From NCBI GenBank assembly GCA_903828455.1, contig CAIKMJ010000002.1, positions 1 through 64,000 of the forward strand: a DNA stretch of 64,000 bases, written 5' to 3'. Made by a program: the position numbers and the translations under genes. This DNA is from an uncultured Acidobacteriia bacterium. Its GTDB lineage: Bacteria > Acidobacteriota > Terriglobia > Bryobacterales > Bryobacteraceae. Of the stretch, positions 43,066 to 62,464 are shown one piece after another. Position 1 is the stretch's first letter; every line of letters starts with the position of its first letter. The notes under the pieces are model-generated. The model was given only the letters and a program-made list of their open reading frames with translations. It had not been told where the DNA came from and did no database searches.

Positions 43066-44103
43066 TCAGTAGAAGGTCAGCGTTTCAATCCCGGTCCCGG
43101 CGTGAAAACTGTTGACGACCTTCCACTGGGCCAGATCGACCACTGAGACCGTGCCGTCGCCGTGATTCCCCACCAGCAGAGTCTTACCATCCGGCGAAAA
43201 TGCGAAACCCATGGGCGCCGAGCCGACCTTCACAACTTTCTGCTCGCCGTGGAGATTGGAAGCGGGAATCAGATTTATCAGGTCGCCGCGAATCGTCATG
43301 GTGAGAATCGCGCTCCCGTCGAGCGTGTACCTCACCTTGTAGGCGCTGGCCGTATTGTCCCGGAGCGTCACGCGGTCGATCACGGTGTCGGTCGCCGGAT
43401 CGATTACGATCATTTCCGGCGCGCTTGAATCCATCACCACAACGCGCTTGCCGTCCGGCGAAACCGCGATGCCTTCTGAGCCTCCGGGCACGGAAACGCG
43501 GGCAACGATCTTATGCGTCTTCAGGTCGATCACCGTGACGTACGGCTTATCTTTCTTGTTGGTGACGTACAGTTTGCTGCCGTCCGGCAGAATGCCCATC
43601 CAGTGACCGGTGCCTTCGTTGTCGATGGCGTCGACGACCTTGCGCGAGCGTGGATCGACCACCAGAACCTTACGGCTGATATCACAGGTGACGTAAATCA
43701 TGCCGGCGGGATCGATCTGAATTCCGTGCGGCGCCACGTAAGGCGAAAGATCGATGGTGCCCGCTAGCTTCTTTGCGGTCATATCGATCACTGCCAGTTC
43801 GTGGCCGGGGCTCGGATTGCGCCCATAAACGCCGTCGCCGTAGATCGTGACCCAGGCAGTCTTGTGATCGGCGGAGAGCGCGAAGTCATGCGGATTCCTG
43901 CCCGTTTCGAAACTGGCGATCTCTTTCCAGGTCGCCGGATCGAAAAACCGCACGTGCGCGCCGAGCTTATCGACCATCATCACGCCCGCCGCGCCGGTGG
44001 GATTGTTGAGATCGACCGTCACCGCCAGCAGCGCGCCCGCAAGACACAGGACTGACACGGCGATCAGGAGCAGATTACGGTGACGATTGGACATGCCTGC
44101 CAT
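43066..44103 (-). CDS. YncE-like seven-bladed beta-propeller protein
   Basis: A 345-residue protein with an N-terminal membrane anchor or signal segment (about 8-28) and repeating beta-propeller units of ~42 residues carrying the motif x-P-D-G-K-x-x (e.g. AVSPDGKRVVV, AFSPDGKTLLVGN) and VVDLxxxKVV pairs, as in YVTN/YncE surface-layer propellers. Start may be ATG 44103 or 44094. Such propellers bind partners or ligands; no active-site residues are visible. The receptor gene's terminator lies 45 bp upstream. Confidence 0.8.
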   Translation of the reverse strand: MAGMSNRHRNLLLIAVSVLCLAGALLAVTVDLNNPTGAAGVMMVDKLGAHVRFFDPATWKEIASFETGRNPHDFALSADHKTAWVTIYGDGVYGRNPSPGHELAVIDMTAKKLAGTIDLSPYVAPHGIQIDPAGMIYVTCDISRKVLVVDPRSRKVVDAIDNEGTGHWMGILPDGSKLYVTNKKDKPYVTVIDLKTHKIVARVSVPGGSEGIAVSPDGKRVVVMDSSAPEMIVIDPATDTVIDRVTLRDNTASAYKVRYTLDGSAILTMTIRGDLINLIPASNLHGEQKVVKVGSAPMGFAFSPDGKTLLVGNHGDGTVSVVDLAQWKVVNSFHAGTGIETLTFY

Positions 44104-44213: not shown

Positions 44214-47200
44214 TCAGAAACCGATTCTGAGGCCGAACTGAATCTGCCGGCTGGTCCCGATAATGTTTGTGACCCGGCCGAAGTTCGGGTTGGGCGTACC
44301 GGCGCCTAGGCCATTGGTCCAAATGCTGTTGCCCGGTTGAGCCCAGTTGGGATGGTTCGGCAGATTGTAAAACTCGGCACGGAACTGCACGTTGGCGACT
44401 TCCGAAATCTTCTTCACCGGGAAGGTTCTCAGCAGCGCGCCGTCGAGCGTGGAAAGACCGGGACCCCGCACCGTGTCTCGACCGAGGTTACCGATCGTTC
44501 CAACGGATTGCAACGAATAGGCGGCAGGATTCAGGTACTGGTTCGGGCCGCCGAAAACGAGCGGACCGCTGAAGTTCGCCACGGCGTTGGGCCGGACGTC
44601 CGCCTGCCCGCCCAGTCCGGAACGGTCGAAGCCCGTCATGATGTCAATGGGGGCGCCGGTCGTGCGGGTATAGATGCCGGTGAGTCTCCATCCCTGCAGC
44701 AGCATACCGTGGCCGGGCAGTTCGTAGATTCCGCTGATACGGACGGCCTGCTTGCGATCGAAGGCCGAAAGTCCGTAGTCGGCATTGGCGTTGTACGGAT
44801 TGGTCGGGAAGTTGGCCGCATTCGGACCCGCTTCCGCGCCCTGACCGGCCGAGCCGTTGTCCAGCGACTTGGAGTACGTGTACGAAATCTGCGTCTGCCA
44901 GCGGTTGGCGAAACGGCGGTTCAGGCTCATGATCAGGCCGTTGTAATTCGAATTGCCGACCGTGTTGCGCTTCACCATACCGGCAAAATTCGCATTCAGA
45001 CGGACGTTCGGCGTTACTGTTCCCGGCTGCGGCGGAGGTCCGGGTGCGCCCGGCGTGGCGACCGCGGGGGTAGCCCAGGCGCCGTTAATCAACTGCGGCG
45101 TATTGTAGTCGCGCGCCAGCAGAAGGTGCTGGTTCGAGGAACCCGAGTATCCAACGGTAAGAATCATCCCGCGGCTCAGATCGCGCTGCACGTTCATGTT
45201 GTATTGGTACGTAGTGGGCGTGCGGTTGGCATAGTAGAACATGCCCTGCGCTTCGGAAGGCAGCGGGGCAACCGGACCTGTCCCGACAAACGGATTGGGG
45301 AAGCTGGGATTGTTGGCACTGCCGCTGACGAAGGGCGGAGAAGTCCAGTACGCAGGCATATAGTCCTTGGCCTGCAGCATCTGGTAGAACATCCCGAAGC
45401 CGCCGCGGATGGAGGTTTTGGCGTTATCGAACGGCGAGTAGGCAAAGCCGATGCGCGGCGCCCAGTTCCGGTTCGTGATATTGCTGCTGAACACGTTCGG
45501 CACCTTTTGGTAAGCCTTATCCGTGATGGCGCCGTTGGCGAAGCCCGTAATGTTGCTCAACAGATTATTGACTTCGCTCGGATTCGAGTTCCAGTCGTAA
45601 CGCAGCCCGATGTTGAGCGTCAGATGCCGGTTGACCTTCCATTCGTCCTGAATGTAGGGAGTGAATGCCCAGCTGCGAACACCGCGTTCGGCATCGGTCT
45701 GCCCAGGCAGCGGGATCGTGACCGAGTTGGGCGCACCGGTGAGAAGCCCAAGCACGCTCGCGAACGTGTAGGTTCCGCCAAGAGCACCGGCGGTGGTTTC
45801 GTTGTCGTCGATGCGGTCCAGCGTGGCGCCGATGCGAAGGCTGTGAGAGCCGTGGGTCATGATGATGTCGTCACCCTCGGTAAAGTGGGTCGGGACGAGC
45901 CAGTTCGGCACCATGCCGCCGATACCGAGCGTCGTCGCGCCCATGCCCATGCCCAGCGCTACGCGGCCGTTCGGCTGATTGGGCGCAAAGTTCAGGATCG
46001 AGAGATTCGGGTTCTGCTGCGTTTGTGTTTCCGTGGGCCGCGAGAGGGCGACACGGAACAGGTTGACCAGGTTCGGCGAGAAGATGTGACGCTCTTCGAT
46101 CGTCGCGAAATTATTCAGCGTCGTATCCAGTTCCACGAAAGGACCGAAGTTGGCCGGCGAGACGTTGGTCGCATTGTCAAAGATATAGCGGGCGAAAATC
46201 GTATCGCTCGACGAAATCGTGTAGTCAAAACGGCCGAGGAAGTAGTTTTCGTGCGTGATCGGGGTAACGACCTCGGTCAGATTGCCGGTACCGCTCGGCG
46301 AAGCCGGTACGACTGGAAAGTAAGCGAGAATCGGTGCAATGGAGGAGGCTACTCCGACATTCGCCAGACCGTTGGAGCACGGATAGCTGGGTCCCGCCAC
46401 GGTGCACGGCAACAGGCCCTGGTGAGCGTTGGCGTCGGGCAGTCCCTGGACGACGGTCGAATTGCCCGTGGCCGAACGCACGCCTTCATAGTTCGCATAG
46501 AAGAACGCCTTGTCCTTCTTAATCGGACCGCCGATGCTGCCACCGAACTGATTACGGCGGAATGCAGGGGGATGCGCCGTCGTTTTGCCCGGCAGGATTG
46601 TGGTGTCGAACGGGCTGCGCGCATCCAGTGCGCTGTTGCGGAGAAATTCAAAAACGGAGCCGTGGAAACTGTTCGTGCCGGACTTGCTGGAAGCGTTCAG
46701 CGCGCCGCCGTTGCCGCCGAACTGGGCGCTGTAGGTGCTGGTCAGCGTCTGGAACTGCGAGATGGCTTCGAGCCCGAGTGACGAGCCCGTCGCAGCCGAG
46801 CCGGTGGAATGGCCCCAGAACCCGACAATGCTCTCGTTATCCAGCATCATCGACTGGCCGAGCGGGCGCGAACCGGAAACGGAATAGTTATCCGACTTGC
46901 CATAGAACGGGCCGCCCGTGTTCGGGATCGTGATGACGCCAGGGGCAAGGCTCATCAACTGTTCGAAGTTGCGCCCGTTGAGCGGAAGATCTACCATCTG
47001 CTGCTGCTCCACCAGCGTTGCGATGGCGGTTGAGGTCGTTTCGACCTGCGAAACCTGTTCATCCACGGTGATGGTCTGCTGCGCCTGGCCCACTTTCAGA
47101 GAAATGTCCACGATGGCTTCACTGCCGACGGTGATCGTCACACCCTTGCGAAGCACGGTCTGAAAACCTGCGTGGCTGGCGTTAATTTCGTAGCTGCCAA

Positions 47201-47444
47201 CGAGCAATTCGGGCGCCCGGTAACGACCGGCGGTATCGGAAGTTGCGGTGGACACGATGTCCGTATCGACGTTTTTTACTTCCAGCTTTACGCCCGGGAC
47301 GGCTGCGCCCGAAGCGTCCGTTACCGTGCCGGAGATCGTGGCCGTGGATTGCGCCGACAAGATCCCGGCACCCAACAACCCCAGCAGCGCGACTGTTCCA
47401 ACGAGTCGCCGCGGGCCCGAAAGATTTCCGTTCAAAATTCGCAT
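44214..47444 (-). CDS. Oar-like TonB-dependent receptor
   Basis: A 1076-residue outer-membrane receptor: basic N-terminus and signal segment (about 13-31, ending LSAQ), carboxypeptidase-regulatory-like domain (about 35-115, TISGTVTDASGAAVPGVKL), plug (about 130-260, EQQQMVDLPLNGRNFEQL; SSLGLEAISQ) and a long barrel ending in LRIGF. AAGGGG is 5 bases before the ATG. It shares the QMVDLPLNGRNF motif that I recognise from many acidobacterial relatives. It ends in a strong terminator. Confidence 0.92.
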   Translation of the reverse strand: MRILNGNLSGPRRLVGTVALLGLLGAGILSAQSTATISGTVTDASGAAVPGVKLEVKNVDTDIVSTATSDTAGRYRAPELLVGSYEINASHAGFQTVLRKGVTITVGSEAIVDISLKVGQAQQTITVDEQVSQVETTSTAIATLVEQQQMVDLPLNGRNFEQLMSLAPGVITIPNTGGPFYGKSDNYSVSGSRPLGQSMMLDNESIVGFWGHSTGSAATGSSLGLEAISQFQTLTSTYSAQFGGNGGALNASSKSGTNSFHGSVFEFLRNSALDARSPFDTTILPGKTTAHPPAFRRNQFGGSIGGPIKKDKAFFYANYEGVRSATGNSTVVQGLPDANAHQGLLPCTVAGPSYPCSNGLANVGVASSIAPILAYFPVVPASPSGTGNLTEVVTPITHENYFLGRFDYTISSSDTIFARYIFDNATNVSPANFGPFVELDTTLNNFATIEERHIFSPNLVNLFRVALSRPTETQTQQNPNLSILNFAPNQPNGRVALGMGMGATTLGIGGMVPNWLVPTHFTEGDDIIMTHGSHSLRIGATLDRIDDNETTAGALGGTYTFASVLGLLTGAPNSVTIPLPGQTDAERGVRSWAFTPYIQDEWKVNRHLTLNIGLRYDWNSNPSEVNNLLSNITGFANGAITDKAYQKVPNVFSSNITNRNWAPRIGFAYSPFDNAKTSIRGGFGMFYQMLQAKDYMPAYWTSPPFVSGSANNPSFPNPFVGTGPVAPLPSEAQGMFYYANRTPTTYQYNMNVQRDLSRGMILTVGYSGSSNQHLLLARDYNTPQLINGAWATPAVATPGAPGPPPQPGTVTPNVRLNANFAGMVKRNTVGNSNYNGLIMSLNRRFANRWQTQISYTYSKSLDNGSAGQGAEAGPNAANFPTNPYNANADYGLSAFDRKQAVRISGIYELPGHGMLLQGWRLTGIYTRTTGAPIDIMTGFDRSGLGGQADVRPNAVANFSGPLVFGGPNQYLNPAAYSLQSVGTIGNLGRDTVRGPGLSTLDGALLRTFPVKKISEVANVQFRAEFYNLPNHPNWAQPGNSIWTNGLGAGTPNPNFGRVTNIIGTSRQIQFGLRIGF

Positions 47445-47599: not shown

Positions 47600-48172
47600 T
47601 CAAAACTGAATGGCGGGAGAGGAAGATTTGGGCGCAACCCAAACCTGACTGGGACGGTACGACACGACGAGGACGGTCTGAAACTCTTCGGGAAACTGAA
47701 TTTTTACCGTGGCGATCTCATCCCGAGCCACGGCGTCGGCGTGGATCTCGACCGGATCGCCATGTCCGTTGGGATCGACCATAGCCTGCATGATGCGGCG
47801 TTGCAGCAGCGACTGCACCTGGCTCGCGTCCGGCCAGTTCCAGTTCGTCAACGGAAGCTCCTTGCCGTCCGCCAGAGTCAACCGGATGCCGGACTGAAAC
47901 TTCGTCTGCGCGCGCTGCAATTCTTTCTGGAAGGCATCCGGCTTCATCGCCGAATACATCACAAGAAACTCAGCCGGCGGCCGCTGCGGAGCAAGAGCAA
48001 GGCGGAGCGCTTCTTCGTAAGTGACGTAGAGCGTCACGGTCAGGTGCCGACTGTCGCGCAATACGAGCGAGGCACGGTTCTCCTGCAGATCGTGCGCTCC
48101 GCCGGTATGCGCGAAGGCAAGCACCAGCAGAGCAGCAGCGATCGCTTTGACCGGGAAAGGCGATGTCTTCAT
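47600..48172 (-). CDS. Small exported protein, unknown function
   Basis: A 190-residue protein with a signal peptide (MKTSPFPVKAIAAALLVLAFAHTG, cleavage near GAHD) and a mixed alpha/beta remainder; the C-terminus is Ser-rich. I do not recognise a family. It lies 33 bp downstream of the YHYH composite gene on the same strand, so co-transcription is likely. Confidence 0.65.
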   Translation of the reverse strand: MKTSPFPVKAIAAALLVLAFAHTGGAHDLQENRASLVLRDSRHLTVTLYVTYEEALRLALAPQRPPAEFLVMYSAMKPDAFQKELQRAQTKFQSGIRLTLADGKELPLTNWNWPDASQVQSLLQRRIMQAMVDPNGHGDPVEIHADAVARDEIATVKIQFPEEFQTVLVVSYRPSQVWVAPKSSSPAIQF

Positions 48173-48205: not shown

Positions 48206-50953
48206 TTACCTGCAATAAGCTATCGACGGCTGCGTGGTCGCACCGGCGCTGTTCTGGAACTGGAAGTTCCAGCAGGCCGTCTTGTTCGCATTTTGCTTCT
48301 GCGCCAGAAGCGCGGCGAGCGCGCTGCCGGTCACCTGGGCATAGCGTATCTGATACGTTCCGGGAGAATTCGGATAACTGTCAGATCCGATTTCGTTGGT
48401 GGTGAACGGATTCGCCGCCGTGAACTGGAGCACCTGGTAGCCATCGGAGGCTGTGGTCAGGGTCATGTTCGAATCGGTGAACGGCGTAACGGGCGGCTGG
48501 CGGAAAGGCGCGTACTTCGGTGTGCAGGTATTGTCACCCGGGCCGCAGGTAGCATTCGGCAGGTCCGGACTGGCCACGCCACTCATACAGTTGTTCGTAA
48601 TGTAAGGGAACACGCTGATGACGTGATAGGCGTACGTGTAGGGGTAGCCGTTGGGAACCTGCGCGCCGCTGATTGCGCTGCCGCCGCAGGCGTCCCTGGT
48701 GGGCGTACTGCCATCTGCATTATTGAAGCCAAAGATTGCATAGCCGTCCAGCATCCAGCCCACAGGATTGGCGTTCCAGTAGTTCGGATTCGATTGCTCC
48801 GCCATCAGACATACCGGCGCGGCATGGTAGTGGTAATCGTCGGAACGGCCGGCGTGACCGTTGCAGGAGTCCAGCTGACCCTCTGCTTTCGTGTCGCCGC
48901 TCGTCGCCGTGCAGTTGCCGGTTTGAACGCACGGGTTAAAGATCGGCAGTCCGTTGATGGCAACACCGATCGGTCCGGATGCAACGGTTGTGTAGATGAA
49001 ACTGCCGGAGCGCCCGGTGCAGTTATAAGTGGCTCCGTTCGCCGCAAACGCAGTGGCGTTGCTGCCATTGCAGAGCTGCGGGTTTTGCGGGATCTTCCAG
49101 CCGTGCGCGCCCTGAAAGTTCTGCGGCGTCGGAATCTGCAGGTTTGTCGACGTGATTGTATTCATCGTCTGATCCGTGGTGGTGTCCAGCGACGCGATAT
49201 ACGCGTAAGTGCCGTCGCAACTGACAACCGCCGGAGTACCGCCAACATCTTTAGCCGCCTGCAAAGACTTCTTGATATAGCTGCAGAGCGTGGCCGCCGG
49301 CAGACAGGTGCCCGCAGCCATGCAGGCACCGGTGGCCGTGGCATTGGAGCGCGAATAGGTCAGGTTAAGCTGCGCCGAGCCAAGCGTCAGCGGCGCGATG
49401 GCCGTAGCGACCGCGGCTCCGGCGGACGTGCCGGCCGGTACGGTAATCGTCGGCGTCCCGGAGAGCGCGTAAATCGTGAAGGTATAGAGCTTTCCACCCG
49501 GCCCCTGGGAGCACGGCGGATCGTACACGTTCCCCGGGCCGTCGTCGCCCTGCAGAGTGGTTCCGACGAGAAAGGCATCCTGCGCCAGACTGGTGGTGGC
49601 GGCCGGAATGTTGTAAACCACCCAGTCATATTTCAGCGGCGGCGCGATTGTGCTCAGCAGAATCGCATACGATTGCGTACCGGAAGGCGGGTTCGTCCAC
49701 GCCAGCGGCAGCGTGGCGCCGGCGCCGTCGCAGGTGTAGAGCGCCGGCATAGTTCCATTATTGGCACCGGCCGAACTGGTCAGGGTGAAAGTGCCGGTAT
49801 TGCCACCACCACCGCCACCACCGCCCGCCCCTCCCGGCGTCACAACAACATTCGCGGAAGCGATGCTCGTTCCGGCCGAACTGGTGGCCGTCACCGAGCA
49901 GGTGTAAGAAGTTCCGTTCGAAAGGCCGGAAACAACAACCGGGCTCGCGCTGGCGGTGCCCGTGAAGCTCTGCCCGCCCGCAGTGCATGTGGCGGTGTAA
50001 CCGGTAATGGCGGGGCCACCGCCGGTCTGCGATGCGGCAAACGCGATGCTGACGCTTCCGTTGCCGGGTGTGACGCTGATTTTGGTCGGCGGACCGGGCA
50101 GGCCGGGTACGACCGCGCCGGCAATCGAAAGATAGAGCGTCTGCAGACTGTTTGCCGTACCGTTCAGTGAAAACTGAACAAGCTGATCACCGCCGGAAAT
50201 GTTATTGGGAACCTGCACGTTGAACTGGTAGAGGCCGACATTCCCCGGCGCGGTACCGGCATAGGTCACGCTGGCCGGCGCATTCCCGATGGTCATCGTG
50301 AACGTTGCGGAAAGCGAGGCCTGTCCGCCGGCCACCGTACCGTTTGCGACTGCCGGAGTGACCGTGCCGAAACCGGTTCCGTAAAAAGTCAGCGTGTCGC
50401 CTGGATTGGCCGGTGCGGCCGTGGTGCCCGGAATGTTCCCGTTACTCACGTAGTTGCCCGTCGCCGCATTGATCGCCACAACGTACTGCAGGCCATTCAC
50501 CGAAAACGAGGGCGGAGCCAGCAGGCCCGGCTCCTGCGCGTTGAATGTTACCTGGACCGGTGTGCTGGAATGCCCGTTATAGCTCACCACTACGGGAGAG
50601 GTGCCGCCCGTCGGTTCATTCGGAACCTGCACATTGATTTGGGTCGGGCTGACGTAACTGATATAAGCCGGATTCTTGCCAATCGTGACGGTCACGCCAT
50701 CAATGGTCGTAGGCGCCGCGGTTCCGTTATTCGTGAAGTCGGATGCAGCCCATTGCCGGGTCGTCCCGGCGAGATTCGTTCCGTAAATTTCGATCCATGA
50801 TCCGGGAGCCGCCACGCCGGCGAAACCGCCGAAACCGCTTGCGGAAATGATGTGGCTCACAGAAGGCGTGGGCGCGGTCTGGGAAAAGGCCGGCATCAGG
50901 AAGGTAAGTGCAAGTAGCGCCCGACAAGGGGCAAGTATGCGTCTCATGATCAT
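48206..50953 (-). CDS. Secreted TIGR03437-FN3-PEBP-YHYH composite protein
   Basis: A 915-residue exported protein with an unusual domain string: signal peptide (about 4-24), TIGR03437-type domain (about 45-265; IEIYGTNLA, AYISYVSPTQINVQVPN, LTFYGTGFG), a fibronectin type III domain (about 288-373), a Gly8 linker (about 377-384), a PEBP/YbhB-like domain (about 388-537; YTCDGAGATLPLAW, KYDWVVYNIPA, GPGGKLYTFTIYAL) and a YHYH domain (about 560-790; DDYHYHAAPVC, VGWMLDGYAIFGF). Start taken at ATG 50953; a second ATG lies 6 bases on. PEBP members bind phosphate-like ligands, and YHYH proteins are of uncertain function. It faces the metallophosphoesterase pair. Confidence 0.85.
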   Translation of the reverse strand: MIMRRILAPCRALLALTFLMPAFSQTAPTPSVSHIISASGFGGFAGVAAPGSWIEIYGTNLAGTTRQWAASDFTNNGTAAPTTIDGVTVTIGKNPAYISYVSPTQINVQVPNEPTGGTSPVVVSYNGHSSTPVQVTFNAQEPGLLAPPSFSVNGLQYVVAINAATGNYVSNGNIPGTTAAPANPGDTLTFYGTGFGTVTPAVANGTVAGGQASLSATFTMTIGNAPASVTYAGTAPGNVGLYQFNVQVPNNISGGDQLVQFSLNGTANSLQTLYLSIAGAVVPGLPGPPTKISVTPGNGSVSIAFAASQTGGGPAITGYTATCTAGGQSFTGTASASPVVVSGLSNGTSYTCSVTATSSAGTSIASANVVVTPGGAGGGGGGGGNTGTFTLTSSAGANNGTMPALYTCDGAGATLPLAWTNPPSGTQSYAILLSTIAPPLKYDWVVYNIPAATTSLAQDAFLVGTTLQGDDGPGNVYDPPCSQGPGGKLYTFTIYALSGTPTITVPAGTSAGAAVATAIAPLTLGSAQLNLTYSRSNATATGACMAAGTCLPAATLCSYIKKSLQAAKDVGGTPAVVSCDGTYAYIASLDTTTDQTMNTITSTNLQIPTPQNFQGAHGWKIPQNPQLCNGSNATAFAANGATYNCTGRSGSFIYTTVASGPIGVAINGLPIFNPCVQTGNCTATSGDTKAEGQLDSCNGHAGRSDDYHYHAAPVCLMAEQSNPNYWNANPVGWMLDGYAIFGFNNADGSTPTRDACGGSAISGAQVPNGYPYTYAYHVISVFPYITNNCMSGVASPDLPNATCGPGDNTCTPKYAPFRQPPVTPFTDSNMTLTTASDGYQVLQFTAANPFTTNEIGSDSYPNSPGTYQIRYAQVTGSALAALLAQKQNANKTACWNFQFQNSAGATTQPSIAYCR
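49803..49825. repeat. CCA/CCG trinucleotide run encoding the Gly linker
   Basis: A short run of CCA and CCG triplets (plus strand) encodes the polyglycine hinge between the FN3 and PEBP domains of the composite gene. Triplet slippage here would change linker length without breaking the frame. Confidence 0.6.
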
Positions 50954-51304
50954 TCGATGTAGTTGCCGAGGGCTGGCTGGCCACTCCGGTGGCAAAGATC
51001 CAGGCGGACCTGGATACCATGCTATTCACAATTTATTAAGATTGCGTGATCGGAAGCGGATGACGCCCACATAAATCCTCTTTGATTGAAACCTGGCGGC
51101 CTGAACAGAGTTCTAATAATTTTGAGATATGTTTGTCCTGTATCATTGGCCTGCGACGGCCCAGCGGCGACCCGAATCGACCCGAAAACCGCGCACGGCT
51201 CCACGTTAATCTATGAAGGTATTCGTCTCCAAAGGAAGGCTTTGCATGCGATTCCGCTGTCTGGCCGGGTGGAGCCCGCAGGACGCGCGACCGTTATTGG
51301 ATCC
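50954..51304. other. Divergent intergenic region of the secreted-protein island
   Basis: 351 bp between the composite gene (minus) and the first metallophosphoesterase (plus). An AT-rich patch (51024-51130) lies centrally. The plus-strand frame is open through part of it, but no start has a ribosome-binding site until ATG 51305, where a signal peptide begins. I cannot assign a promoter with confidence. Confidence 0.4.
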
Positions 51305-53647
51305 ATGCGAATCATGCAGATGAAGTGCCGCCTGATGCCGACGGCGCTGTTGCTTGTGCTCGCCGGGATGGCTCCCGCCCAAACCGGCCCCTGCAATGCG
51401 GAAACCTTCCCTTCCATTAACAGTTCTCCGTGGCTGGGACAGGAGATGCTGGGCCGCGTGGAGGCCAATTCCATCAACGTCAACGTGGTTTTCAGCCAGG
51501 ATGCGAAAGCTTACGTTCAGTACGGAACCGCCAGCGGCGCCTACACGTCGTCGACACCTGTGCAGACGGCCCCTGCTGCAGTCCCGCTGAACATCACTCT
51601 GAGCGGGCTTACGCCCAATACCCGCTACTACTACCGACTGCAGTATGCAGTTGCCCCCGGCACCACCTTTACCGCTCGTCCGGAGCATAGTTTCATAACG
51701 GCTCGTCCCGCGGGGACGCCCTTCACTTTTGTGGTCCAGGCGGATCCGCACCTGGACAATAATTCCGATCCCAGTGTCTATGCGCTGACGCTCAGGAACG
51801 AACTGCAGGACAATCCCGATTTCCTGATCGATCTGGGCGATACGATGCTGACCGACAAGCTCAATACGTCAGGTGAGCCGATCGGCTCCGGTGGACCGAA
51901 TTGCGGCGGCGGTCCCACCGCGGCCGGGGTGCTGGCGCGAGCCCAGTTGCACAGATCTTACTACGATCTGATTACCGGATCGGTGCCACTGTTTCTCGCA
52001 CTCGGCAATCACGAAGGGGAGTGGGGAGCCGATCTGAATGGCACCTCGCAGAACTATGCGATCTGGGATACGGTAGACCGCAATCTGTATTTCCCGGATC
52101 CCGCGCCCGACAGCTTCTTTTCCGGCGACACGCAGCAATACGATCTCACCGGCAGTCCGTGTACGCCAGGCCAGAACGCCAACTGTGGACTCGGCCTGCG
52201 AAAAAGCTACTATTCCTGGGGCTGGGGCGATGCCCTGTTCATTGTGCTGGATCCCTTCTGGAACCAGACGCCGGCGACGAACGCGTCATCGCCGGGGAGC
52301 GGTGTAGACTGCTGCCGAACAGGAACCACGCAATCGACAAATGCACCGAGCATTCAGACAGACTGGTCGCTGACGCTGGGGGATGCGCAATACAACTGGC
52401 TGCAATCGACGCTGGCGAACAGCACGGCGAAGTTCAAGTTTGTGTTCGCCCACAACCTGATCGGCGGATGGAACTACAACGGCACCGGAATCATGCGCGG
52501 CGGAATCGAGGCGGCGAAATACTCGGAATGGGGCGGCTACAACCTGGACGGCACATACGGGTTCACGAAGTATCGCCCGAGCATGGCCATGCCGATCCAT
52601 CAGTTACTGCTTAAGTACAACGTGACGGCCTTCTTCCACGGCCACGATCATTTTTACGGGCATCAGCAACTGGATGGCATTCACTACCAGGAAGTACCGC
52701 AGCCGAGCGCGGCGCACGGGACCAACGAAGCGGGGATCGGCGCATCGGACGGCTATACCCACGGCACCATCCTCAATGGCAGAGGATATGTTCGGGTAAC
52801 GGTGGATCCGGCTAAGGGCACAACTGTTCAGTATGTGCAAACCTGGCTGCCGACGGAAGTGACCGCCAACGTCACCAATCGCATGGTGGCGGATACGTGG
52901 GTCGCGGCGCCCGCGGCTGCGGGCTTGCCCCCTACAGCGCCGACGGTATCGTCCGTTACCAACGCCGCCAGCGGCCATTTGGCAATCGCGCCCAACACCT
53001 GGACCTCAATCAAAGGAACCAACCTCGCGCCCGCCGGAGACTCCCGCACCTGGAGCAGCGCAGACTTCCTGAACGGCACTCTGCCGACGAACCTCGACGG
53101 CGTCAGCGTTACGGTCAACGGCAAAGCGGCTTACGTGTACTACATCAGCCCGACGCAGGTCAACGTCCTGACGCCGCCGGGCGCATTGTCCGGTTCGGTC
53201 CCCGTTCAGGTCACCGTCAATGGAATTGCGAGCCCGTCGTTCAACGTGAACGCACAGGCCGCCGACCCGGCATTCTTTCTGTGGAGCAATTACGCCGTCG
53301 CGACCCATGCCGATTTCAGTCTGGTTGGCCCGGCAACGCTGTATCCGGGACAGACCACTCCGGCTAAGCGCGGCGAGACGATCACACTCTGGGGGACTGG
53401 CTTTGGCGCAACTTCGGCGCCGGTTGTCGCCGGCGCGACAACGCAATCCGGCACGCTGACCCCACCACCAGCCGTTTCGATCGGCGGGCTGCAGGCGCCG
53501 GTCTCCTTTGCCGGCCTCGTTTCCGACGGCCTGTTTCAATTGAATGTGACGGTCCCCCCGGCCACGCCGGCCGGGGATCAATCGATCGCCGCGACATATA
53601 ACGGAGCTGCAACGCAGTCCGGTACATTACTAAACGTATCTGAATGA
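51305..53647 (+). CDS. Secreted metallophosphoesterase with TIGR03437 C-terminus (copy 1)
   Basis: A 780-residue exported phosphoesterase. Signal peptide (about 8-26, ending PAQ), an N-terminal FN3-like domain like that of purple acid phosphatases (about 45-135; YVQYGTASGAYTSST, LTPNTRYYYRLQY) and a calcineurin-type phosphoesterase domain (about 140-530) with the five motifs: ADPHL (D147, H149), LIDLGD (D179), GNHE (235-237), FAHN (H383) and GHDH (446-449). A TIGR03437-type domain closes the protein (about 560-780; WTSIKGTNLAPAG, YYISPTQVNVLTP). Copy 2 overlaps its stop by 4 bp. Substrate not visible. Confidence 0.88.
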   Translation: MRIMQMKCRLMPTALLLVLAGMAPAQTGPCNAETFPSINSSPWLGQEMLGRVEANSINVNVVFSQDAKAYVQYGTASGAYTSSTPVQTAPAAVPLNITLSGLTPNTRYYYRLQYAVAPGTTFTARPEHSFITARPAGTPFTFVVQADPHLDNNSDPSVYALTLRNELQDNPDFLIDLGDTMLTDKLNTSGEPIGSGGPNCGGGPTAAGVLARAQLHRSYYDLITGSVPLFLALGNHEGEWGADLNGTSQNYAIWDTVDRNLYFPDPAPDSFFSGDTQQYDLTGSPCTPGQNANCGLGLRKSYYSWGWGDALFIVLDPFWNQTPATNASSPGSGVDCCRTGTTQSTNAPSIQTDWSLTLGDAQYNWLQSTLANSTAKFKFVFAHNLIGGWNYNGTGIMRGGIEAAKYSEWGGYNLDGTYGFTKYRPSMAMPIHQLLLKYNVTAFFHGHDHFYGHQQLDGIHYQEVPQPSAAHGTNEAGIGASDGYTHGTILNGRGYVRVTVDPAKGTTVQYVQTWLPTEVTANVTNRMVADTWVAAPAAAGLPPTAPTVSSVTNAASGHLAIAPNTWTSIKGTNLAPAGDSRTWSSADFLNGTLPTNLDGVSVTVNGKAAYVYYISPTQVNVLTPPGALSGSVPVQVTVNGIASPSFNVNAQAADPAFFLWSNYAVATHADFSLVGPATLYPGQTTPAKRGETITLWGTGFGATSAPVVAGATTQSGTLTPPPAVSIGGLQAPVSFAGLVSDGLFQLNVTVPPATPAGDQSIAATYNGAATQSGTLLNVSE
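51419..51489 (+). repeat. Paralogue repeat, copy 1 (segment A)
   Basis: 71 bp matching 53770-53840 with three mismatches, much closer than the surrounding sequence. It encodes the fold-start of the N-terminal domain. The ~2.35 kb spacing equals the gene length, as in a tandem duplication. Confidence 0.85.
51800..51865 (+). repeat. Paralogue repeat, copy 1 (segment B)
   Basis: 66 bp matching 54151-54216 with three mismatches. It encodes the metal-binding LIDLGDTMLTDKLN region of the metallophosphoesterase. Confidence 0.85.
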
Positions 53648-55992
53648 GACTAATTCGAATGAGCAGAGTGGAATCGAAATACTTACTTACTCTGGCGACG
53701 CTGCTTGCCCTCGCCAGCGGACCTGCCATGGCGCAGACGAACTGCGGAGCGCAGACCTTTCCGTCAATCAACAGTTCTCCGTGGCTGGGCCAGGAGATGC
53801 TGGGCCGCGTGGAAGCCAACTCCATCAACGTCAACGTGGTGTTCGACCAGGCCATGCAGGTTTACGCACAGTACGGCACGGCGTCGGGAGCCTATACGGG
53901 GTCGACCCCGGTGCAGACAGCCGCGGCCGGAGTGCCGGTGAATATCACGCTGCCCAATCTGAATCCAAACACGCGGTATTACTACCGCCTGCAGTATGCG
54001 CTGCCCTCTGTCACCACCTTCACCGCACGACCGGAGCACACCTTCGTTACGGCGCGGCCAAGGGGGACACCGTTCACGTTTTTGATCCAGGCCGATCCGC
54101 ACCTCGATAACAATTCCTCTACCGACGTCTATAAGCTGACGCTTGCCAATGAACTGCAGGACAACCCCGATTTTCTGATCGATCTGGGCGACACGATGCT
54201 GACCGACAAGCTCAATGCACTGGGTCAGCCCAACGACTGCGGCGCCAGCCCTACGGCTGCGGGCGTATTGGCACGCACTCAGCTCCATCGTTCGTTTTAT
54301 GACCTGGCCACCCATTCCATACCGCTGTTTGTTGCGGTCGGCAATCACGAAGGCGAGTGGAGCGCCAATCTCTCCTCCGCCGCCTACCCGCCCCCCAACA
54401 ACTACGCCATCTGGGACACACTGGATCGAACCGGCTATTTTTCCAACCCGGCGCCGGATGGTTTTTTTTCGGGCGACAAACAGTTCTATGACCTCAGCGG
54501 CAATGTCTGCGTACCCGGTCAGTCCGTGACATGCGGTTTGGGACAGCGCCGGTCTTATTACTCGTGGGAATGGGGCGACGCACTGTTCATTGTGCTGGAC
54601 CCGTTCTGGAACCAGACGGACTCACGGAGCACGACCGGAAGCGGCCAGACCTGCTGTCAAAAAGGCACCGGGACCGGTGCGGCCTGGAACCTGACTCTGG
54701 GCTCGACGCAGTACAACTGGCTGCAGCAAACCCTGCAGAACAGCACCGCGACCTACAAATTCGTGTTTTCCCACAATCTGGTGGGCGGGCTGGATCCCGT
54801 CTACCAGGGCGCCTCACAGGGACCGATGCGCGGCGGCGTGGAAGCGGCCCCCTATTTGGAGTGGGGCGGGCTGAATCTGGACGGCACGTATGGCTTCGGC
54901 ACATATCGGCCGGGCTGGCCCATGCCGATTCACAACATGCTGGTAGCCAACCACGTCACCGCCTACTTCCACGGGCACGATCACCTTTACGCCCACCAGA
55001 CACTCGACGGCATACAGTATCAGGAAGTACCGCAGCCGAGTGCGTCCAACGGAAGAAACACCACGATCGGCCCGAGCTATGGCTATAAGCAGGGCACGAT
55101 TCTTCCGGGCCGCGGATATGTGCGCGTCCAGGTATCGCCCACGACGGGCGTGACCGTGCAGTTCGTTGAAACCTGGCTGCCCAGCGAGGCAACCGGCAAC
55201 CTCAAAAACGGGATGGTGGCCGATTCCTACGTCGTTCCCTCACCCTCTTCCACCGGCCCGGGCGCGGCGCCCACGGTTTCGCCAGGCGGGATCGTTCCCG
55301 TTTACAGCTCTGTCTCGACAATTCAGTCAGGATCCTGGATCTCGATTTACGGCACCAATCTGGCCAGCAGCACAGCCACGTGGACGGGCAATTTCCCGCA
55401 GTCTCTGGGCGGCACGAGCGTGACCATCAACGGGAAGCCGGCGTACCTCTGGTACGTCAGCCCCACGCAGATCAATCTGCAGGCTCCGAGCGACACAGCG
55501 ACGGGCCCCGTTCCCGTGGTGATCACGACGCCGACCGGCACGGTTTCTTCCACTGTGACGCTGGCGCCGTCAGCGCCGTCGTTCAGCCTGCTCGACAGCA
55601 AGCACGTGGCCGGGATCATTCTCCGCTCCAACGGCGCCGGCGCGTATGGCGGCGGAACCTACGACATCATCGGGCCCACCGGAAACTCGCTGGGTTACGC
55701 CACCGTCGCCGCAAAGGCTGGCGACACCGTTGAATTGTTCGCCGTCGGACTTGGCCCGACCACGCCCGCGGTCGCCGCGGGGCAGCCGTTCTCCGGGTCC
55801 GCGCCGACCACCAATCCCGTGACCCTGTCCATCAATAACGTGAAGGTCACGCCGACATACGCGGGCATGACCAGCGCCGGGCTTTATCAGATCAACCTGA
55901 CGATTCCGGCCGGACTCGGCACCGGCGATGTCTCGCTGACAGCTTCGACCAGCGGAGCGCTGACGCCGACAGCGACCATCTCGCTGCAGTAA
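53644..55992 (+). CDS. Secreted metallophosphoesterase with TIGR03437 C-terminus (copy 2)
   Basis: A 782-residue paralogue of the previous gene in the same order: signal peptide (about 13-31, ending AMAQ), FN3-like domain, phosphoesterase domain (ADPHL, LIDLGD, GNHE, FSHN, GHDH), C-terminal TIGR03437-type domain (WISIYGTNLAS, LWYVSPTQINLQAPS). ATG 53644 overlaps the stop of copy 1 (ATGA); ATG 53659 is an alternative. The two copies are diverged overall but share near-identical DNA blocks. The duplication gives a coupled pair that may act on related substrates or form a complex. Confidence 0.88.
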   Translation: MRLIRMSRVESKYLLTLATLLALASGPAMAQTNCGAQTFPSINSSPWLGQEMLGRVEANSINVNVVFDQAMQVYAQYGTASGAYTGSTPVQTAAAGVPVNITLPNLNPNTRYYYRLQYALPSVTTFTARPEHTFVTARPRGTPFTFLIQADPHLDNNSSTDVYKLTLANELQDNPDFLIDLGDTMLTDKLNALGQPNDCGASPTAAGVLARTQLHRSFYDLATHSIPLFVAVGNHEGEWSANLSSAAYPPPNNYAIWDTLDRTGYFSNPAPDGFFSGDKQFYDLSGNVCVPGQSVTCGLGQRRSYYSWEWGDALFIVLDPFWNQTDSRSTTGSGQTCCQKGTGTGAAWNLTLGSTQYNWLQQTLQNSTATYKFVFSHNLVGGLDPVYQGASQGPMRGGVEAAPYLEWGGLNLDGTYGFGTYRPGWPMPIHNMLVANHVTAYFHGHDHLYAHQTLDGIQYQEVPQPSASNGRNTTIGPSYGYKQGTILPGRGYVRVQVSPTTGVTVQFVETWLPSEATGNLKNGMVADSYVVPSPSSTGPGAAPTVSPGGIVPVYSSVSTIQSGSWISIYGTNLASSTATWTGNFPQSLGGTSVTINGKPAYLWYVSPTQINLQAPSDTATGPVPVVITTPTGTVSSTVTLAPSAPSFSLLDSKHVAGIILRSNGAGAYGGGTYDIIGPTGNSLGYATVAAKAGDTVELFAVGLGPTTPAVAAGQPFSGSAPTTNPVTLSINNVKVTPTYAGMTSAGLYQINLTIPAGLGTGDVSLTASTSGALTPTATISLQ
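53770..53840 (+). repeat. Paralogue repeat, copy 2 (segment A)
   Basis: 71 bp; partner of 51419-51489, three mismatches. It encodes the same SINSSPWLGQEMLGRVEAN stretch in copy 2. Confidence 0.85.
54151..54216 (+). repeat. Paralogue repeat, copy 2 (segment B)
   Basis: 66 bp; partner of 51800-51865, three mismatches, covering the DLGDT metal-ligand region. Confidence 0.85.
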
Positions 55993-58352: not shown

Positions 58353-60008
58353 ATGCGGATTGCCCTCGGGCAGATCAACCCCACGGTTGGCGACTTCAGC
58401 GGCAACCTCGCGCTGATGATTCGCCGCGCGCGCGAGGCAGCGGAGCGGGGCGCGCAGATCGTCGCATTTCCGGAGCTTTCGATAACCGGCTATCCTCCGC
58501 GGGATCTTGTCGAAAAGCCCAGCTTTATCGACCGTTCGGAAGCCGCGGTGGAAGAACTGGCGCGGGCAACGGCCGATCTTCCGCTTTCTCTGATCACCGG
58601 CTACGTGGGACATCCGGCAGCGCCTTGCGGCAAGCCGGCGACGAATTCCGCGGCAGTGCTGCAGGGCGGGCGCGTCGTCATGCGGCAGACCAAGATGCTG
58701 CTGCCGAACTACGACGTATTTGACGAGGCGCGCAACTTCACGCCGGCTTCGACGCAGTCGTTGTGGGAACGCGGCGCCGGCCGCATCGCGCTCACCATCT
58801 GCGAAGACGCCTGGAATGACATGCAGTTCTGGCCGCATCCCCTGTACGGGCGGGATCCGGTGCACGAACTGGTGCAACGCGGCGCAACCGCGCTGATCAG
58901 CATCAACGGCTCGCCGTTTCACATGGGCAAGCGCCGTTTGCGCGAGGAAATGTTCCGCGCCATGGTGAAGCGGCATAAGATCCCCGCTGTGATGGTCAAT
59001 CAGGTGGGAGGCAACGATCAGGTGATCTTCGACGGCACCAGCTTCGCGATGGATGCGCAGGGCAACGTGATCGCCAGCGCGGCATCGTTCGCCGAAGATC
59101 TGGTGCTGGTGGATCTTGACGCCGGCACGGGTGAACAGCACGGGTCGGTGGCCGATGAGTGTGAGGCCGTTTACGAGGCCCTCGTCACCGGGACTCGCGA
59201 TTATCTGCGCAAGTGCGGCTTCCGGAAAGTGCTGATCGGCCTGAGCGGCGGTATTGACTCCTCGCTGACGGCCGCTGTCGCGGTGGAAGCGGTGGGGCGC
59301 GAAAACGTTCGCGGCGTGGCGATGCCCGGCCCGTTCTCCTCGGAACACAGCGTGGCGGACGCCCGCGCGATGGCCGAAGCGCTCGGCATCGCGTTCGACA
59401 TCATTCCGATCACGCCGGCGTACAACGAAATAATGCGCACGCTGGGTGGAGTATTTGAGGGCCGCGCGCCCGATGCCACGGAGGAGAACATCCAGGCGCG
59501 CCTCCGCGGCCTCACGCTCATGTCGCTGTCGAACAAGTTCGGCGCTCTGGTACTCACTACGGGCAACAAGAGCGAACTCGCGGTCGGCTACTGCACGCTT
59601 TACGGCGATATGTGCGGCGGGCTGGCGGTGATCAGCGACGTGCCGAAAACGCTGGTCTATGAGCTGTCACGGATCGCCAACCGCCGAAACAACAATGCGA
59701 TCCCGGAGAACGTCTTCATCAAGCCGCCTTCAGCGGAACTGCGTCCCGACCAGAAGGACAGCGACTCGCTTCCGCCATACGATATTCTCGACGCGATTCT
59801 GCGTCTGTACGTGGAAGAGTTCCGCAGCGTCGCTGATGTGGCGCGTGAACTGAAACTGCCCGTGGCGCTCGTGCGCGATGTCGCCGGCAAGGTGGATCGC
59901 AACGAATACAAGCGCCAGCAGGCAGCACCGGGCCTCAAGGTCACCTCGAAGGCCTTTGGAATTGGCCGGCGCTTCCCCATCGCGCAACGCTTTTCGGAGA
60001 CCGGATGA
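58353..60008 (+). CDS. nadE: Glutamine-dependent NAD+ synthetase
   Basis: A 551-residue enzyme for the last step of NAD+ synthesis. The N-terminal nitrilase-type glutaminase domain has the Glu41-Lys114-Cys150 triad (FPELSITGYP, RQTKMLLPN, LTICEDAW); the C-terminal synthetase has the PP-loop SGGIDSS (298-304) and GNKSELAVGYCTLYGD. Domains and length are normal for the bacterial two-domain form. Its TGA overlaps the start of the next gene (ATGA). Confidence 0.96.
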   Translation: MRIALGQINPTVGDFSGNLALMIRRAREAAERGAQIVAFPELSITGYPPRDLVEKPSFIDRSEAAVEELARATADLPLSLITGYVGHPAAPCGKPATNSAAVLQGGRVVMRQTKMLLPNYDVFDEARNFTPASTQSLWERGAGRIALTICEDAWNDMQFWPHPLYGRDPVHELVQRGATALISINGSPFHMGKRRLREEMFRAMVKRHKIPAVMVNQVGGNDQVIFDGTSFAMDAQGNVIASAASFAEDLVLVDLDAGTGEQHGSVADECEAVYEALVTGTRDYLRKCGFRKVLIGLSGGIDSSLTAAVAVEAVGRENVRGVAMPGPFSSEHSVADARAMAEALGIAFDIIPITPAYNEIMRTLGGVFEGRAPDATEENIQARLRGLTLMSLSNKFGALVLTTGNKSELAVGYCTLYGDMCGGLAVISDVPKTLVYELSRIANRRNNNAIPENVFIKPPSAELRPDQKDSDSLPPYDILDAILRLYVEEFRSVADVARELKLPVALVRDVAGKVDRNEYKRQQAAPGLKVTSKAFGIGRRFPIAQRFSETG

Positions 60009-62464
60009 AAGTCGTACGCTCACTCGCCTCGATTGCCCTCGCCGCTGCAGCACTGCTGTCTCAGGACGGCCAGCGGGAAATCGTCGGCCCTCTCGCGGAC
60101 GGCGCTTATCTGCTCAGCAGCGGGTGGCGGATTAAAGCCGCCGGCACGCAGATCCCGGTCGATACCTTGCCGCTGGGCGGAGTTGTCACGCCCGATAAGA
60201 AATTCCTGCTGGTTGTTCATGGCGGTTTCAATCCGCCGAGCGTGAGCGTGATCGATCTCGCGGCCGGCAAGGAAACCAGCCGCGCCGCAGTGCCCGACGC
60301 CTGGATGGGCATCGCGATCAACAAGGCCGGGGATAAGGTTTACGTCGCAGGCGCAAGCAAAGCGGGGATCTACGAATTTTCCTTCACCGGCGGAGTTCTG
60401 ACGCCGGCCCGCTTCTTCCCCGTCGCGCCGGAGAAGGACCGCAAGACTGAACTCTTCATCGGCGACCTGCAGTTTTCGCCGGACGGGCATCTGCTGTATG
60501 CCGCCGATTTGTATGGCGACGCCGTCGTGGTGGTGAATCCGCAATCCGGCTTCATTGTTTCGCGGGTCAAGACCGTCCATCGTCCTTTCCGCATTTTGTT
60601 TCCCCCTGCCGGCAAGAGCTTTTTTGCATCCAGCTGGTCCGATGGTCTGGTGGGCCAGTACGACACCGCTTCCGGCCAGGCGCTTGCCACCCTGCGCGTC
60701 GGCCCCCACAGCACGGACATGGCGTGGCGCGAAGGCGAGTTGGAAGATCAGCCCGGCGTGAAGGCGCGGTTGTTTGTGGCGGCCGCCAATACCAATAACG
60801 TGTACGTGTTCGGCGCATCGGAATCCGGCACGCTGACGCGCCTCGAAACAATCAACCTCGCGCTGACGCCGCGCCAGCCGCTGGGCACAACGCCGGGCGG
60901 ACTCAGCTTCAGCGCGGACGGAACGAAGCTCTTCGTAGCCTGCGCCGATATCAACGCCGCCGCGGTGGTCGATATCTCCGGCGCGCGCAGCCGAGTGGCC
61001 GGCTTCATTCCGACCGGCTGGTATCCCACTGCAACGATCGGCCTGCCGGACGGGCGTCTTGCCGTACTGAATGGCAAAGGCGCTCGCTCGTATCCCAATC
61101 CTCTCGGTCCCACTCCGTTCCGCGGATCGGCGGCCTCCCTTCCCGATGGCAGCCTGACTCACTACGTCGCGCGCATTCAGCGCGGCAGCGTTCAACTGGT
61201 CGATGTGGATGAGGCGAAACTGCCAGGCTACACACAGGAAGTGCTCGGTAACTCGCCCTATCGCGACGAGAAGCTCACCGACCCGGGCACGCCGCCGGGC
61301 AACCCTGTGCATGGCGGCGGACCGATCAAACACGTGATCTACATCGTCAAGGAAAATCGTACTTACGATCAGGTGCTCGGCGATATCAAGGAAGGCAACG
61401 GCGATCCTTCGCTGGTGCTGTTCGGCGAAAACGTGACGCCGAATCAGCACAAGCTGGCCCGTGAGTTCGTACTGCTGGATAATTTCTACGAAAATTCCGA
61501 CGTCAGTGCCGACGGCCACAACTGGGCCACGGCCGCGATAGCGCCCGACTACACCCAGCGCACGTGGCCTTCAACCTACGCGGGCCGCCGCGACACTTAT
61601 GATTTCAACGGCACCGGCGATGCAAACCTGCCGCCCGCCGGCTACATCTGGACCGCCGTGGCGCAGGCGGGATTGACACTGCGCAACTACGGCTACTGGG
61701 TGGAAAATCGCGAAACCGCTGCTCCCGACGGCACGCAGATCGAGGCGGTGCTGGACCCCGTACTCGCCGAACGTACCAACTGGAATTTCCGGTCCTTCGA
61801 CATGGACTACACGGACGTTGCGCGCGCCGGCGTGTTCATCGAAGATCTGAAGGGCTTTGAGAAGTCCGGGGCGATGCCCAATTTCATGATCATGCGGCTG
61901 GGCAACGATCATACGTCTTACAATTCGCCCGGCAAGATCGCTCCACTGGCGGCGGCGGCAGACAACGATCAGGCCGTCGGTATGGTCGTGGAGGCCGTGT
62001 CGAAGAGCCGCTTCTGGAACGAGACGGCGATTTTTGTCATTGAAGACGACGCGCAGAACGGGCCGGACCATGTGGATTCGCATCGTTCGAGCTGTTACGT
62101 CATCTCTCCCTGGGTCAAGCGTCACAGCGTGAACAGCACCATGTACAACCAGGCCAGCGTCCTGCGCACCATGGAACTCATTCTCGGACTCCGGCCGCTC
62201 ACCACGTTTGACGCCGGCGCGCGGCCCATGTTCAGCGTGTTTGCCAACGCGATTTCGCCCGGCCCATATACGCTGGAAAGGCCGCGTATTCCTCTCGACA
62301 CGCGCAATCCGTCAGGCGGTCCGGAAGCCGCCCGGGCAGCGCATCTGCGCCTCGACGAGGCCGACGATGTGGACGACGAAGAGGGCAACGCTATTCTATG
62401 GGCAGCTATTAAAGGCAACGGGGCCACGGCGCCCACGCCCGTGAGGAGCCGCTTCGCGCACTGA
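60005..62464 (+). CDS. Secreted YncE-type propeller fused to a phosphoesterase domain
   Basis: An 819-residue exported protein: signal peptide (about 1-20), a beta-propeller with PDGHLLYA- and ADGTKLFVA-type repeats (about 50-420) and a C-terminal phosphoesterase-type domain (about 435-770; HVIYIVKENRTYDQVLGD, DNFYENSDVSADGHNW, FVIEDDAQNGPDHVDSHRS) like PF04185 acid phosphatase/phospholipase C enzymes. This propeller-phosphoesterase architecture recurs in Acidobacteria. It is coupled to nadE (4-bp overlap), which may just be local packing. Substrate unknown. Confidence 0.85.
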   Translation: MKVVRSLASIALAAAALLSQDGQREIVGPLADGAYLLSSGWRIKAAGTQIPVDTLPLGGVVTPDKKFLLVVHGGFNPPSVSVIDLAAGKETSRAAVPDAWMGIAINKAGDKVYVAGASKAGIYEFSFTGGVLTPARFFPVAPEKDRKTELFIGDLQFSPDGHLLYAADLYGDAVVVVNPQSGFIVSRVKTVHRPFRILFPPAGKSFFASSWSDGLVGQYDTASGQALATLRVGPHSTDMAWREGELEDQPGVKARLFVAAANTNNVYVFGASESGTLTRLETINLALTPRQPLGTTPGGLSFSADGTKLFVACADINAAAVVDISGARSRVAGFIPTGWYPTATIGLPDGRLAVLNGKGARSYPNPLGPTPFRGSAASLPDGSLTHYVARIQRGSVQLVDVDEAKLPGYTQEVLGNSPYRDEKLTDPGTPPGNPVHGGGPIKHVIYIVKENRTYDQVLGDIKEGNGDPSLVLFGENVTPNQHKLAREFVLLDNFYENSDVSADGHNWATAAIAPDYTQRTWPSTYAGRRDTYDFNGTGDANLPPAGYIWTAVAQAGLTLRNYGYWVENRETAAPDGTQIEAVLDPVLAERTNWNFRSFDMDYTDVARAGVFIEDLKGFEKSGAMPNFMIMRLGNDHTSYNSPGKIAPLAAAADNDQAVGMVVEAVSKSRFWNETAIFVIEDDAQNGPDHVDSHRSSCYVISPWVKRHSVNSTMYNQASVLRTMELILGLRPLTTFDAGARPMFSVFANAISPGPYTLERPRIPLDTRNPSGGPEAARAAHLRLDEADDVDDEEGNAILWAAIKGNGATAPTPVRSRFAH

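Follow-up and report, generated by a model that had tools for sequence, protein, structure and literature searches.

Do neighbouring genes for exported-looking proteins that share one domain work as a unit, and if so, on what? The question is raised by a locus in a 64,000-nucleotide stretch of contig CAIKMJ010000002.1 from an uncultured Acidobacteriia bacterium, the whole of which we call the window. There, a composite protein with TIGR03437, fn3, PEBP and YHYH domains is encoded divergently from two tandem metallophosphoesterases (MPEs), MPE1 and MPE2, which carry TIGR03437 domains as well. The original prediction, made from the letters of the DNA, proposed a joint function and gave two reasons, the common TIGR03437 domain and a phosphate-like ligand common to the PEBP and phosphoesterase folds. 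Our tentative answer, held with slightly less than even confidence, is that the island is a secreted module for the capture of a transition metal, most likely copper, with a phosphoesterase attached. A joint function gains from a relative in which MPE, PEBP and YHYH form a single frame and from MPE genes at the composite loci of two further genomes, while the two reasons originally given for it do not stand. No result supported phosphate as the common ligand, and we rejected it; the neighbours found in relatives, namely MbnP, MbnH with a CusF domain, a multicopper oxidase, SCO1 and an Ang-1-like protein, suggest a transition metal, and the common theme of the island looks like metal rather than phosphate.

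Domains and gene order of the locus

The composite lies on the minus strand at 48206-50953. Its open reading frame of 929 amino acids (48206-50995) opens at TTG 50995, and by eye we picked ATG 50953 as the likelier start and ATG 51305 for MPE1, each of which stands before a hydrophobic stretch. Profile matches place an N-terminal TIGR03437 domain at residues 59-282 (50150-50821, minus strand), an fn3 domain at residues 302-384 (Pfam profile), a PEBP domain (PF01161) at residues 416-547 (49355-49750, minus strand; 53.9 bits against a gathering score of 24) and a YHYH domain (PF14240) at residues 668-758 (48722-48994, minus strand; 41.3 bits against 25), the last also recognised by its conserved residues. 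The predicted model of the PEBP part resembles YbhB (1fjj; Z 13.1, root-mean-square deviation (rmsd) 3.0, 134 aligned residues) and YbcL (1fux; Z 12.9). Across a divergent intergenic region of about 350 bp (50954-51304) follow MPE1 (51305-53647) and MPE2 (53644-55992), both on the plus strand and overlapping by 4 bp. They match Metallophos (PF00149) with 27.8 and 26.2 bits (cut-off 21.5) and carry C-terminal TIGR03437 domains at 52955-53638 and 55315-55989. The TIGR03437 scores of 180.9 bits for the composite, 192.7 for MPE1 and 172.8 for MPE2 are all far above the curated cut-off of 29.05 bits. The domain positions, the three consecutive genes and the divergent arrangement are thus as originally described. 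A hydrophobic N-terminal stretch is found in all three proteins by a crude hydropathy rule, which is not a dedicated signal-peptide predictor. One gene had been missing from that description: directly behind the composite, 33 bp downstream, an open reading frame supported by a structural model and homologues encodes p190, a small exported-looking protein of 190 amino acids (47600-48172, minus strand).

The common TIGR03437 domain says little about the island. In the window's own genome (G000) there are 61 TIGR03437 matches, 59 of them above the cut-off, spread over about 56 genes. By chance, with random placement and an assumed gene length of 1,150 bp, about 0.012 runs of three such genes would be expected, a figure which counts for less than it suggests because MPE1 and MPE2 form a tandem pair and further TIGR03437 genes are clustered too (contigs C12, C46, C48 and C22). 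Moreover, the TIGR03437 half of MPE2 has 78-80% DNA identity to its counterparts in two MPE genes of contig C12, the catalytic halves of which share only 40-41% protein identity with MPE2, and the catalytic half of MPE2 is nearest to MPE1 (70% amino acid identity). By these comparisons MPE2 is a mosaic, its TIGR03437 copy coming from another lineage than its catalytic half. The domain moves between paralogues, and therefore having it in common is alone no argument for one function; we rejected it as the mark of a special island. Our literature search found no papers on TIGR03437.

Copper proteins in relatives and an Ang-1-like protein beside the composite

We searched 121 genomes of the family with the PEBP-YHYH part of the composite. 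PEBP and YHYH occur together in four of them, G000, G041, G058 and G013, with two composite loci each in G000 and G041; the second G041 locus has no TIGR03437 domain. The genome G024 was not counted, since it has a TIGR03437-PEBP piece only and both YHYH and p190 are missing. A scan of named metagenome-assembled genomes (MAGs) added a single relative, the Bryobacterales MAG L044. The conserved synteny that had been proposed as a check was found in part: the neighbourhood recurs in relatives, but full composites are rare (these four genomes and L044) and the G041 MPEs that most resemble the window's lie elsewhere.

In G058 (L033), one strand carries in this order an MPE, a TIGR03437 protein of the DNW family (our label for proteins with a common D-N-W start), a TIGR03437-fn3-multicopper oxidase, MbnP, MbnH, the composite and p190, with genes overlapping by 4 bp or standing 2-107 bp apart. 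The oxidase reaches 354.6 bits with the CueO model, under its cut-off of 525, while its Pfam copper-oxidase domains are over theirs. MbnP and MbnH are both over their cut-offs, and MbnH also contains a CusF domain and an additional cytochrome c. The order in G041 (L034) is composite, p190, oxidase, MbnP and MbnH homologue; a second composite faces this block, two MPE genes lie some 5 kb past that composite, and the first composite has a divergent two-component system. Judging by gene order, the composite of both genomes appears to share an operon with a multicopper oxidase, MbnP and MbnH, which is the first reason why we favour a metal module. In G013 the composite, with a broken frame, and p190 lie near a contig end.

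The second reason is p190. It is found in 4 of the 121 genomes, exactly those with full composites, where it adjoins the composite each time, and also in L044. The best PDB match of its model, which has a predicted local distance difference test (pLDDT) score of 77, is 9gce, the copper-bound Ang-1 domain of a HupE/UreJ-2 protein (Foldseek E 2.8e-8). The two align with a VIA Z score of 11.3, an rmsd of 3.8 and 144 aligned residues, at 12% identity over the structural alignment, so the predicted model has the Ang-1 fold by comparison with 9gce; ZrgA (Z 7.8) and PA4063 (Z 7.6) are the next matches. A p190 profile against PDB sequences gave one match only (E 0.33). No Pfam family was assigned to p190 (best E 0.14, to RcpC, under the cut-off), neither the window's p190 nor that of G058 matched DUF6702 (PF20420), and a HupE/UreJ-2 permease match was absent from this free-standing protein of 190 amino acids. 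Because the permease domain is missing and there is no Pfam family, we call p190 Ang-1-like on the basis of its model and do not assign it as an Ang-1 member.

Ang-1, Ang-2 and DUF6702 proteins bind Cu or Ni via an N-terminal histidine, according to PMC12537917. The conserved His27 of p190 is invariant, a permitted cleavage site stands directly before it in five of five homologues, and His27 may be the mature N-terminus. The cleavage rule is a rough one that also permits other sites, including two His-start sites in the window's p190 and an implausible site in the composite, and by the same rule a His start is possible in 9 of 22 YHYH-only proteins. The restriction of p190 to genomes with full composites and L044, the Ang-1-like model and the option of a His N-terminus together argue for the metal module.

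In the mechanism that we propose, the composite and p190 would be exported together. As an Ang-1-like beta-sandwich with a probable N-terminal histidine, p190 would bind the metal, and YHYH would receive, store or relay it at a conserved site made up of three His and an Asp; TIGR03437 and fn3 would be extracellular spacers or retention modules. The composite could be a surface protein that passes the metal to p190 or to a receptor. The tandem MPEs would be functional partners, maybe metal clients, and may free phosphate or metal from extracellular complexes. For the window locus we infer the involvement of a metal from the relatives, and likewise its identity, the direction of its flow, export, metal binding and the roles of PEBP and the MPEs.

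The YHYH domain and its company in bacteria, plasmids and phages

In an alignment of 26 YHYH proteins ten columns are invariant. D709, H714, Y721, H722, H724 and D750 of the composite are invariant and Y723 nearly so, the YHYH motif itself being residues 721-724, so that the composite has the full D/H/YHYH motif. A D, three His and a D among the ten invariant columns are a further reason for favouring a metal module. All seven PEBP-linked rows keep the first YHYH motif and have YAYH or YSYH in place of the second, which is kept in 14 of the 19 other rows. The model of the 530-residue PEBP-YHYH part has a pLDDT of 67.5 as a whole and of 81-93 in the YHYH blocks (321-390); among PDB sequences, the YHYH part had no match at E 1.

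Besides the composites, the genome of the window contains a tandem pair of YHYH proteins of about 660 amino acids, whose two YHYH matches enclose a TIGR03437 match (L046, G000:C45:47136-49790). At least two YHYH matches close together were also seen in G041, G058, G003, G111, G118, G072, G023 and G071. By sequence, the tandem proteins form a putative separate YHYH subfamily.

We then looked at YHYH neighbours across the phylum, where 18 of 396 genomes have PF14240; 16 of the 17 genomes other than our own were inspected (G024 was left out). SCO1/SenC lies within 2 kb of YHYH in 5 of these 16 genomes and in 3 of 10 families, assigned by profile in G443, G490 and G227 and by similarity to the G443 protein in G332 and G509. 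Against a background of 45 SCO1 matches in 13 genomes, the rough chance for 3 of 10 families is 3e-6, a post hoc figure, as SCO1 had already turned up at two loci when the test was chosen. Furthermore, a DUF6702 protein stands directly behind YHYH in G317 (28.2 against a cut-off of 24), and a MauG-type di-haem peroxidase, under the MbnH cut-off, is found about 2.6 kb from YHYH in G227. Two-component genes flank several of these loci (no background rate was measured).

On plasmids we tallied 11 annotated distinct YHYH loci, counting two Loktanella plasmids as one, likewise four from Bradyrhizobium, of which one was viewed, and excluding three unannotated records, UR115 and two from Persicobacter (one not viewed). 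HupE follows 4 bp behind YHYH in Deinococcus, a di-haem oxidoreductase stands beside it in Antarctobacter, and a convergent cytochrome oxidase cluster with CtaG is near it in Pseudooceanicola. PEBP or DNW is present at 2 of the 11 loci, in the order YHYH-PEBP-DNW-YHYH in Loktanella and DNW-YHYH in strain SC52, and a metallophosphoesterase lies 0.8 kb from YHYH in Bradyrhizobium. Near the Acaryochloris YHYH lie an RND pump and a two-component system; we did not count the pump as a copper neighbour, as its best NCBIfam models are multidrug ones. The presence of SCO1 near YHYH in 5 of 16 phylum genomes, and of HupE (Deinococcus), DUF6702 (G317) and a di-haem oxidoreductase (Antarctobacter) adjoining it, are further reasons for which we favour the metal module.

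DNW proteins (L080:9295-9942, L082:7031-7672, L036:8619-9344, L033:8198-9190 and L090:6138-7184) are found beside or near YHYH in two phyla: in the composite operon of G058, in G088 and G310, and in Loktanella and SC52. They are annotated as PEBP in the plasmids, yet the L080 and L082 members have no Pfam match. Near two Vibrio relatives of DNW no YHYH is annotated. Behind the second Loktanella YHYH gene lies a gene for a Met- and His-rich, exported-looking protein of 172 amino acids with no Pfam match (L080:11120-11638).

The best-surviving rival starts from the YHYH domain itself, which would be a metal-dependent hydrolase with a Zn2+ site or a surface-recognition domain, so that the secreted set would act on polymers at surfaces or in the environment, PEBP and TIGR03437 serving for binding. 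For phage YHYH, three His and one Asp were proposed as a likely Zn2+ site and a tail-associated hydrolase was predicted (PMC7824862); YHYH has also been predicted as a host-recognition domain. Among 50,697 phage records, 436 are matched by a canonical YHYH protein (L086:6746-7771); their names are those of Synechococcus, Prochlorococcus, cyanophage or marine phages, in which metal scavenging makes little sense. With the YHYH part of the composite as query no phages were matched, and a scan of viral contigs with PEBP-YHYH gave 0 loci. The joining of YHYH to a phosphoesterase in the L044 frame also suits this rival, as does a weak sugar-binding-domain match in a Vibrio DNW relative (21.2 bits, under the cut-off of 28). 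We regard this explanation as doubtful, since metal-binding or copper/haem redox proteins occur in several bacterial YHYH neighbourhoods and the modelled p190 resembles a metal-binding and not a catalytic protein. No paper linking YHYH to copper was found in the literature searched, mostly without subscription papers.

Phosphoesterases and the weighing of the proposed metal module

In L044 one open frame of 1228 amino acids comprises MPE, TIGR03437, PEBP and YHYH, with another MPE before it and p190 after it; the MPE part is 64% identical to MPE2. Because these domains stand in one frame, we favour a phosphoesterase partnership, in which the phosphoesterase is a facultative but real partner of the YHYH module. 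Residues D145, H147, D177, H234, H381, H445 and H447 are invariant in eight aligned MPE proteins, and we take these columns to be metal ligands; the N of GNH is replaced in one of the eight. The MPEs fall short of the purple acid phosphatase profile (Pur_ac_phosph_N, 29.0 bits for MPE1 and 21.3 for MPE2 against a cut-off of 30), their PhoD matches are below the cut-off and their best PDB match is 6gja, at only 6.7e-5.

The window's own genome has 26 MPE loci. An MPE lies within 10 kb at 5 of its 8 YHYH loci (binomial P 8e-5), within 5 kb at 2 (P 0.04) and within 2 kb at 1 (P 0.17), where three of the five are on one contig and the C45 tandem pair is counted as one locus. At the composite loci of G041 and G058 the MPEs reach no more than 38-49% identity to MPE2, while MPEs with 67-68% identity sit on other contigs, of which the one in G058 measures 5.1 kb and is too short to judge linkage to YHYH. 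MPE clusters are few in G041 and G058 (2 and 4), and the rough chance of finding one at the composite locus is 0.8% and 0.5%. Elsewhere in the own genome, YHYH genes stand among genes for an MPE, an Oar-like outer-membrane protein, a YVTN propeller and a 265-residue family (L037 on C12; L038-L040 on C6), surroundings that resemble the set in the window; L038 also has a HupE gene.

These counts bear on a second rival, in which the composite and p190 would be metallochaperones that load secreted dinuclear MPEs with Fe, Zn or Mn, phosphate acquisition being the product. The frame that joins MPE to PEBP-YHYH would fit, as would the MPEs within 10 kb at five of eight loci and the metallophosphatases named among frequent Ang-2 neighbours in PMC12537917. 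It is nevertheless unlikely: G013 has no MPE match in its genome though composite and p190 are present, the MbnP, CusF and multicopper oxidase domains found in G058 mark copper proteins rather than phosphatase partners, and only one YHYH locus of the own genome has an MPE within 2 kb. That three genes from a large pool of secreted TIGR03437 paralogues are adjacent by chance, with no joint function, is improbable in spite of the roughly 56 TIGR03437 genes, the 26 MPE loci, the patchy conservation and the most similar G041 MPEs lying away from YHYH, given the fusion in L044, the presence of MPEs at the composite loci in G041 and G058, two genomes with few such clusters, and the fact that at genome level full composites and p190 pair exclusively.

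Several observations weigh against the metal module and keep our preference for it tentative. At the window locus no MbnP, MbnH, oxidase or SCO1 adjoins the composite; the own MbnP/MbnH/SCO1 set is on C25, where the 16 kb that were read contain no YHYH match. MbnP is present in 9 of the 121 family genomes and near a composite in only two of the nine (G058 and G041), and SCO1 is near YHYH in none of the four composite genomes. The second composite of the own genome (L031, G000:C46:297917-300394) has no p190 or MPE nearby; beyond one intervening gene lies, by the look of the sequence, a putative FTR1-like permease with a MacB-like ABC set. The fused frame comes from one MAG only and its Metallophos match of 19.8 bits is under the cut-off of 21.5; the G013 genome without an MPE adds to this, and no YHYH match was found in the 20 kb read at the G041 MPEs most like the window's, which speaks against strict coupling. 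Only 3 of the 11 plasmid loci have a metal or haem-copper neighbour, and four others (Limimaricola, Tsukamurella, Marinovum and Pacificitalea) offered nothing informative. The fold search with the 530-residue model returned PEBP and then fn3-like chains, with no YHYH fold match. The Ang-1-type fold is not copper-specific: the PDB entries for ZrgA and PA4063 include zinc-bound forms, and DUF6702 preferred Ni in PMC12537917.

A wider reading is possible, and we put it forward more cautiously than the metal module itself. Bacterial YHYH proteins may form a class, so far unrecognised, of extracytoplasmic copper (transition-metal) proteins that work with PEBP, Ang-1/DUF6702-type binders, DNW, SCO1 or MbnP/MbnH, of which the Bryobacterales module would be a TIGR03437-presented, phosphoesterase-wired version linking metal capture to phosphate release. 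In the literature found, YHYH has been predicted as a phage-tail Zn hydrolase or host-recognition domain. The association with SCO1, MbnP/MbnH and N-terminal-histidine binders gives YHYH and stand-alone Ang-1-like proteins a specific testable function and offers a candidate partner for bacterial PEBP proteins, and the fused frame makes the link between metal capture and phosphoesterase directly testable.

On the same strand, p190 is followed 155 bp downstream by an Oar-like outer-membrane receptor (44214-47444, minus strand; CarboxypepD_reg and OMP_b-brl_4 profiles), a YVTN/YncE-like beta-propeller protein (43066-44103, minus strand; by similarity) and then a further, unassigned protein. Related outer-membrane proteins and propeller homologues adjoin YHYH genes on C12 and C6. 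Receptor and propeller are possible members of the island only, for the receptor because its two closest own-genome paralogues (68% on C80, 61% on C34) sit on contigs without YHYH matches. A 265-residue protein at 41734-42531 matches neither Pfam nor NCBIfam at E 0.01; on C12 and C6 its homologues are found close to YHYH genes. An 819-residue protein with a PF04185 phosphoesterase domain (60005-62464), 4 kb downstream of MPE2, clusters by similarity with YVTN propeller proteins.

Comparison with known systems

Surface copper proteins with a di-haem partner have been shown or suggested in bacteria, such as CorA (PMC3912023) and MbnP/MbnH (PMC3621798). The composite resembles the MbnP/MbnH and MopE/CorA systems in that it shares an apparent operon with MbnP and MbnH in G058 and G041; the window locus differs from them in having neither, the own copies being on C25. 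With Ang-1 and DUF6702 proteins (PMC12537917; 9GCE), p190 has in common its predicted fold, a conserved His that is possibly the mature N-terminus, and metal-related neighbours in relatives, whereas it is free-standing without the HupE/UreJ membrane domain, belongs to no Pfam family and has 12% identity to 9GCE. The composite carries the same conserved His/Asp motif as that described for the YHYH (PF14240) phage-tail proteins in PMC7824862; in contrast to them, its YHYH domain is fused to PEBP, fn3 and TIGR03437, and the second motif is YAYH or YSYH in PEBP-linked rows. Finally, the MPEs are like purple-acid-phosphatase-like and PhoD-like enzymes in their Metallophos domain with conserved putative metal-ligand columns and a purple-acid-phosphatase N-terminal-like domain, and differ from them in Pur_ac_phosph_N and PhoD matches below the cut-offs and in their C-terminal TIGR03437 domain.

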